From positions 868,001 to 932,000 of the forward strand of contig JADQAV010000028.1 in NCBI GenBank assembly GCA_019775845.1: a stretch of DNA of 64,000 nt, written 5' to 3'. Shown piece by piece: positions 40,873 through 41,889 of this stretch (positions are counted from its first letter, which is position 1; each line of letters opens with the position of its first letter). Below the pieces are notes generated by a model. That model did no database searches. It was not told where the DNA came from and saw only the letters and a list, made by a program, of their open reading frames with translations. The DNA comes from Myrmaecium sp. VS I D KN 1 (lineage: Eukaryota > Ascomycota > Dothideomycetes > Valsariales > Valsariaceae). A program made the translations under genes and the position numbers.

Positions 40873-41889
40873 TTAACGGTAAGACTTCTGGAACCTGGCG
40901 CGGGCACCCGGACCACCGAACTTCTTGGGCTCGCACCTCCTGTTGTCGGCAACGAGCAGTGTCCTGTCGTACTGGACGAGGGCCTGCTTCAGCTGGTTCT
41001 TGGAGTGCTCATCGACGAATTTCTGGTAGTAGGCGACCTGGGGAACAGTTAACATGCAATTCCAGAATCTTCGAAGAGGGAAACGTACGATGGACTTGGC
41101 GATGGCCTGGCGGATGGCGTAGACCTGGGAAGTGTGACCACCACCGGTGACGCGGACCCTGATGTCAACCTCGGCTGCAAGGCGTCAGCAATGAGATTCT
41201 TTCAAGATAGGGTCGTGAGTATACGTACCGAACTTGTCAAGACCAAGGATGAGGATAGGCTCGTAGACCTTGAAGCGGAGGATCTCCGGCTGGACGAGGG
41301 AGAGGGGCTTGCCGTTAACCTTGACAAGACCCTTACCGGCCTTGCAGTGGGCGACAGCCGTGGCGGTCTTCTTCTTGCCGAAGCACTGAACACTACGGGG
41401 ACGTTAGTCAATAGGTTCATCGGCCTTGCATCCTCCTGCAACCCCTGCGGTTTCCGGAATGACTGCGAGCGTAGTGCTGAAGGCGGCGGTTCATCTCCTT
41501 CAGCAGAATTGCAGCCGTCGTGGCGAGATATATCCGGTCGGTATTCAAAACCTGTCCCACACAGAGGTTTTGACAGATGCGTCCGCCAATTGACCAGCGT
41601 TCACACCGCATAACCCTGTAGCATAGACGCTTTTGCCAATTCTCGCGCATCCGAAAATAGAGTGGTACAGCGACCGATATTCTAGTCGGTGGAGATGTGT
41701 GCGACCCAGATGCTTGCGTATTCGGTATACTCGAGGATTTCGTGAGTCGGCTGGGGAGAGGCTTGCGTAGTTCGCATCTCTCGTTCGGTGTCGGGCGAGC
41801 AATCGGATGGCAGTCGTTCCGGAAATCGCAGGGAATGAACAAGGGAGGATCACAACATCAGAAGTATCTCACCTCTGAGTAGAAGCCAT
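40873..41889 (-). CDS. RPS16: 40S ribosomal protein uS9 (S16)
   Basis: The model is complement(join(40873..41037, 41089..41174, 41229..41392, 41873..41889)), 143 aa, the yeast length. It binds the head of the small subunit, with its C-terminal tail near the P-site tRNA. Text includes [40 protein letters not shown] sequence, [20 protein letters not shown] and [20 protein letters not shown] with the usual YR end. The first coding exon is only 17 nt (MASTQ plus two bases) and is followed by a 480-nt intron. The other introns are 54 nt and 51 nt. The first intron contains complementary arms described separately. The small last-exon intron starts GTACGT. Confidence 0.97.
41443..41833. repeat. Inverted repeat arms inside the first intron of RPS16
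   Basis: Two 24-base arms at 41443-41466 and 41810-41833 are reverse complements except at two positions. The shared core is TTTCCGGAA. In the pre-mRNA the upstream arm begins at intron base 40 and the downstream arm ends about 50 bases before the 3' splice site. The arms enclose 343 bases with no recognised gene. Confidence 0.88.

Follow-up and report, generated by a model that had tools for sequence, protein, structure and literature searches.

In the S. cerevisiae gene RPS17B (RP51B), efficient splicing requires a segment near the donor to pair with one near the branch point, and the paired segments shorten the structural distance (as described in passages of PMC2536676). Another example comes from the first intron of RPL7B in the same yeast. 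This intron is 409 nt long, and its positions 49-76 pair with positions 331-356 to form a splicing enhancer that the Rpl7 protein can switch off (PMC12311795, in excerpt). Such structures are known as zipper stems, and high-confidence cases were reported in 32 of 88 yeast introns probed with DMS. In the excerpted text of the same study (PMC12350175), a zipper stem is defined by linkers of 42-85 nt in total, with the stem at least 10 nt from the donor and at least 20 nt from the branch point.

For filamentous fungi, no paper on bridging structures was among the matches listed when titles and abstract openings in the open-licence literature were searched, which is weak evidence of absence. The nearest publication, PMC2911113, concerns the yeast Yarrowia, and its excerpt names zipper stems as a possibility worth investigating.

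A candidate for such a structure occurs in the gene for ribosomal protein uS9 (RPS16) of the fungus Myrmaecium. The gene was found in a window of 64 kb, the term used here for the whole stretch of DNA that was analysed. Its coding region runs from 41889 to 40873 on the minus strand, with the stop codon read from the sequence. Spliced alignment resolves it into exons at 41889-41873, 41392-41229, 41174-41089 and 41037-40873 and introns at 41872-41393, 41228-41175 and 41088-41038, which are 480, 54 and 51 nt long. In the PDB, the conceptual protein is matched by uS9 chains, best of all by 5oql_u (E = 4.4e-74).

Intron 1 (41393-41872, minus strand) starts with the donor GTGAGA and ends with the acceptor CGTAG. 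Its branch site, TTGACTAAC, lies at 41403-41411 on the minus strand, and the branch A, at 41404, is 11 nt before the last intron base. The distance from donor to branch point is 468 nt, which exceeds the long-intron criterion of more than 200 nt used for zipper stems.

An earlier note on this DNA had set the length of 480 nt, borne out by the spliced alignment, against other introns of mostly 48-94 nt. Across the 25.66-Mb genome, 132 introns were modelled in 53 ribosomal-protein genes, and RPS16 intron 1 is the longest of them. The contrast drawn in the note holds only in part for this set (median 72.5 nt): 87 of 132 introns are at most 94 nt long, and 16 of the 132 measure at least 150 nt. 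Core genes of Fusarium have introns recorded at 42-529 nt (PMC5677156, in excerpt), so the length of the RPS16 intron is by itself unremarkable.

Short introns provide a scale for the distances discussed below. In a set of 97 introns, the donor and the branch point are 37-75 nt apart (median 47) in those of at most 94 nt. For this set, visual inspection led to the rejection of 11 first introns placed by the aligner, 7 of which were redrawn by hand and 4 omitted. The short introns of the 132-intron set likewise have a median of 47 and a maximum of 75 nt, together with a minimum of 15 nt that is probably due to a misplaced branch site. First-intron rows of eL33, uL29 and eL31 were left out of the larger set as unreliable, and some of the introns retained may be wrong, for instance that of eL24, with the donor GTTCGC.

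RPS16 intron 1 contains an inverted repeat with arms of 24 nt. The 5' arm occupies 41810-41833 on the minus strand (sense intron positions 40-63) and the 3' arm 41443-41466 on the same strand (sense positions 407-430). Read in the sense direction, the intron thus consists of 39 nt, the 5' arm, 343 nt, the 3' arm and a final 50 nt, and the branch A lies in this last segment, beyond the 3' arm. The arms are complementary at 22 of 24 positions, and both mismatches (41826/41450 and 41816/41460) are A.C in the sense RNA. In all these respects the earlier note had read the intron correctly: it had described reverse-complementary arms with two A-C mismatches, whose pairing removes 343 nt and leaves 39 and 50 nt, with the branch site on the short side.

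Random RNAs also fold their ends together, and the pairing could in principle have arisen by chance. Among 1,000 dinucleotide shuffles of the intron, though, the best 24-nt pairing reached 19 of 24 positions, against 22 in the real sequence. Neither the 64-kb window nor 282,579 other surveyed bases, some of which overlap, contain another inverted repeat that reaches 21/24 and encloses a loop of 3-450 nt. Chance pairing is close to refuted by the shuffles and this survey.

The earlier note had suggested folding the intron RNA computationally, and in the predicted fold the arms do pair. In RNA flanked by exon sequence, the pair probability is 0.90-1.00 at 22 of the 24 arm positions, and the other two are the A.C mismatches. 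For the sense intron, the folding energy is -162.1 kcal/mol (z = -3.03). The predicted stem is longer than the 24-nt arms: it continues outward on the 5' side through 41839-41855 (sense 18-34) and on the 3' side through 41426-41439 (sense 434-447), both on the minus strand. By hand count, this gives 37 bp with interruptions, including an asymmetric internal loop, between the outer limits 41855 and 41426. The wide duplex, with its outer extension, has an energy of -56.0 kcal/mol.

In the predicted fold, intron 1 falls within the numeric definition of a yeast zipper stem taken from the excerpt of PMC12350175. Of 300 sampled structures, a fraction of 1.00 (rounded) contain a stem of 6 bp or more that qualifies. 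The commonest such stem has 23 bp, with linkers of 38 nt on the donor side and 38 nt on the side of the branch A. If the outer helix forms as well, the linkers are about 22 and 26 nt; once the outermost 4 predicted base pairs are counted by hand, their sum falls to about 39 nt, slightly short of the 42 nt required in yeast. The mean stem of 21.6 bp compares with a shuffle mean of 1.8 and was equalled in none of 200 shuffles and none of 200 size-matched genomic intervals. The structural distance between donor and branch point is no shorter than random (17.0 versus 18.4 in 100 shuffles, p = 0.42), as the ends of any RNA of 480 nt tend to lie near each other.

RPS16 intron 1 probably carries a zipper stem of the kind known from RPS17B, with an inferred effect on splicing. 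The arms would pair in the pre-mRNA and loop out 343 nt. Short single-stranded linkers, of 38 and 38 nt or of about 22 and 26 nt, would then connect the donor and the branch point to the stem, so that the bridged distance would come close to the 37-75 nt that separate donor and branch point in short introns. The spliceosome could then treat an intron of 480 nt as an ordinary one. On this reading, the stem would form in the cell, would raise splicing efficiency and may be maintained by selection.

The two mismatches bear on the question of which strand matters. An A.C mismatch in the sense RNA becomes a G.U pair on the antisense strand, and the antisense arms are thus paired at all 24 positions. 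The arm duplex has an energy of -38.8 kcal/mol in the sense RNA versus -46.9 kcal/mol in the antisense RNA. The whole intron, too, has the stronger fold in its antisense strand (z = -3.58, versus -3.03 for the sense strand). The zipper test is likewise passed after the interior of the intron has been reverse-complemented, and the mean stem is then longer (25.2 versus 21.6 bp). A.C in the sense strand and G.U in the antisense strand are the wrong way round for selection on a sense stem; two positions prove little.

These observations fit an inverted repeat that serves the other strand, or one that is a source of double-stranded RNA, either as a small-RNA precursor or as an RNase III target. However, even with up to 3 mismatches allowed, no other place in the genome matches the arms, and such a role would not explain why they sit where they do with respect to donor and branch point. 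This explanation is very improbable. For the yeast-like bridge that the earlier note had proposed, the zipper-stem geometry and the excess of stem length over shuffles have held up, but the structural shortening is no greater than in shuffles, and the mismatches spare the antisense pairing, not the sense pairing.

The looped-out region (41467-41809, minus strand, 343 nt) has no folding energy beyond random. Its fold has z = -0.13 in the sense and -0.21 in the antisense direction, with 200 shuffles each, and a structured RNA within the loop was rejected on the sense value. Since the loop folds like random sequence, the folding excess of the intron sits in the bridge.

That the excess is confined to the pairing also agrees with the main rival to the bridge reading. 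An ordinary intron of about 90-110 nt may have acquired an insertion, either a fold-back element or an inverted duplication of local origin, that serves no purpose and is tolerated because its two ends pair with each other. Excising 41443-41833 leaves 89 nt, which is an ordinary length among the ribosomal-protein introns of this genome, and near-perfect arms whose differences are A.C and not G.U resemble drifted DNA copies. Against this, the pairing extends outward beyond the arms, past the asymmetric internal loop, and the arms of other bridged ribosomal-protein introns have different sequences. Within 4 nt of two candidate boundaries, flanking duplications reach at most 3 nt, and these at shifted boundaries. 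Nor does the locus have an Rfam match at the cut-off. A tolerated insertion is judged unlikely, while deserving more weight than the other rivals.

The earlier note had allowed for an inverted-repeat element that recurs in the genome, and its suggested search for the arms as a dispersed repeat disfavours this. A genome-wide pattern search with up to 3 mismatches returned the two arms themselves and nothing else, and a reversed control pattern had 0 matches. The whole intron matches only itself (E<=0.001) in a DNA search that skips very common words. A repeated element such as a MITE or an introner was rejected on these grounds, and the lack of other matches also counts against a tolerated insertion.

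A further explanation is that the stem is one of two states of a regulatory switch. The RPS16 protein or another factor would open the stem and lower splicing, much as Rpl7 acts on RPL7B. The excerpt of PMC12311795 describes in RPL7B a layout similar to that of RPS16, together with a competing protein-binding structure, and retention of RPS16 intron 1 would create an in-frame stop at once (AGG TGA). The binding site of RPL7B is conserved and structured, though, whereas the RPS16 loop folds no better than random. Regulation of RPL7B also depends on a weak branch site, and none is evident in RPS16, whose branch site is a CTAAC. A switch of this type is improbable.

Several other identities were considered for the intron. 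A snoRNA or another Rfam family was rejected on an Rfam scan and a search for C/D boxes: the only hit at RPS16 is IRES_Bip, with E = 0.34 and 12.3 bits against a cut-off of 40. The patterns used found no C-box-like motif in the intron, and two CTGA motifs occur at positions 12 and 370. At six other ribosomal-protein loci (L085, L086, L090, L079, L012 and L031), no Rfam family reached the cut-off either. A stwintron, in which introns are nested, was rejected as well; there is no internal branch site, and YTRAY branch-like motifs occur only at intron positions 15, 465 and 469. No tandem repeats were found in 40800-42600.

A stretch of 146 codons without a stop runs through the intron on the minus strand (41420-41857), a length that 67 of 2,000 shuffles also reach. 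A Pfam search up to E = 10 gave nothing for it. In the genome, the one significant match is the stretch itself, and the next two matches have E values of 0.146 and 0.584. The open stretch is probably due to chance and not a coding insert. A search for relatives gave no match to RPS16 exon 2 among viral contigs and genome contigs, and the 19 plasmid records matched by the whole RPS16 protein are all bacterial or archaeal, with no fungal relative.

Other long introns of ribosomal-protein genes may be bridged as well. The bridge test covered the 20 of 132 introns with a donor-to-branch distance of at least 125 nt. The branch motif is absent from 5 of the 132; these are 53-120 nt long, and none was eligible. 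Bridges beyond shuffles (p<0.05) were found in 7 of the 20, those of RPS16, uL16/RPL10, uS4/RPS9, uS2, eL20, uL4 and eS4. The combined test against shuffles gives a Fisher value of 1.5e-5, or 1.4e-4 without RPS16. Against genomic intervals, 6 of 20 pass (Fisher 2.0e-4; 1.6e-3 without RPS16), and uL4 is not significant (p = 0.149). A control with reverse-complemented interiors gives p<0.05 in 4 of 20 introns (Fisher 0.004).

The predicted bridges differ in length. Intron 2 of uL16/RPL10 has 21 bp with linkers of 36 and 35 nt, intron 1 of uS4/RPS9 (G000:C64:450649-450793) 26 bp with 15 and 27, and intron 1 of eL20 17 bp with 33 and 48. Stems of 13 bp occur in intron 1 of eS4 (linkers 57 and 24) and of uS2 (26 and 50), and intron 2 of uL4 has 11 bp (53 and 25). 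Arm sequences differ among the seven.

A stricter test considers position only. The longest helix is the bridge in 4 of 20 introns where 1.58 are expected (P = 0.06; P = 0.20 without RPS16), and uS4 narrowly fails because its 27-bp helix leaves a linker of 40 nt. As this test is not significant, the claim for a class is no more than suggestive. A bridge is also missing from some long introns, those of eL42 (402 nt) and uL13 (287 nt), so it is not required. It is possible, if doubtful, that bridging stems are a recurrent solution in the long introns of RPS16, RPL10, RPS9, eL20, eS4, uS2 and uL4, that bridging arose or was retained beyond the intron-poor budding yeasts, and that it may set which ribosomal-protein introns grow long.

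Some features of these genes were recorded along the way. Intron 1 of eL42 has a 22-bp internal hairpin in its fold, though it lacks a bridge. In budding yeast, structures in RPS9 introns belong to an autoregulatory circuit (PMC4937481, in excerpt), and the uS4/RPS9 intron 1 here is the one with the 26-bp bridge. As placed by eye, the first introns of eL19 and uS4/RPS9 split the start codon (AT|GTAAG...AG|G); the ATG is complete only after splicing, and the unspliced text reads ATGTAAG. Donor and branch or acceptor motifs were seen by eye upstream of the start codon in uS12, uS5, uS13 and eL21, which suggests introns in the 5' untranslated region. The genes uS13, uL22 and uS8 are clustered within 15 kb (G000:C8:711039-725998), eL18 and eL27 lie within 3.5 kb (G000:C17:114260-117729), and eL21 and uS4 are divergent, with start codons about 0.3 kb apart (G000:C64:449742-451525).

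With the zipper stem as the preferred reading, RPS16 intron 1 can be compared with the known systems. It shares inverted repeats inside an intron with introners and elements with terminal inverted repeats; unlike introners as described in the excerpt of PMC9860276, it is single copy and has no target duplication longer than 3 nt. Intron length, arm layout and linker sizes are similar to those of the zipper in intron 1 of RPL7A and RPL7B (excerpt of PMC12311795). In RPL7B, though, there is also a further protein-binding structure, which is conserved, and the branch site departs from the consensus; neither feature was found in RPS16. Like the zipper stems of DMS-probed yeast introns, the RPS16 stem lies within the numeric definition, here by its predicted fold (PMC12350175, in excerpt).

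The arms of RPS16 would offer a clean two-arm substrate for a splicing test in which pairing is mutated and restored. Together with the weaker signs of a class, they would make it testable whether bridges generally keep long introns efficient.

The likeness to RPS17B covers the type of gene, which encodes a ribosomal protein, the long intron, and paired segments located 3' of the donor and 5' of the branch point (excerpt of PMC2536676). Unlike that of RPS17B, the RPS16 stem is known here from prediction. The setting differs too: zipper stems have been documented for budding yeast, which has few introns, whereas the ribosomal-protein genes of the Myrmaecium genome have many, mostly short introns, and RPS16 is a strong example from such a fungus.
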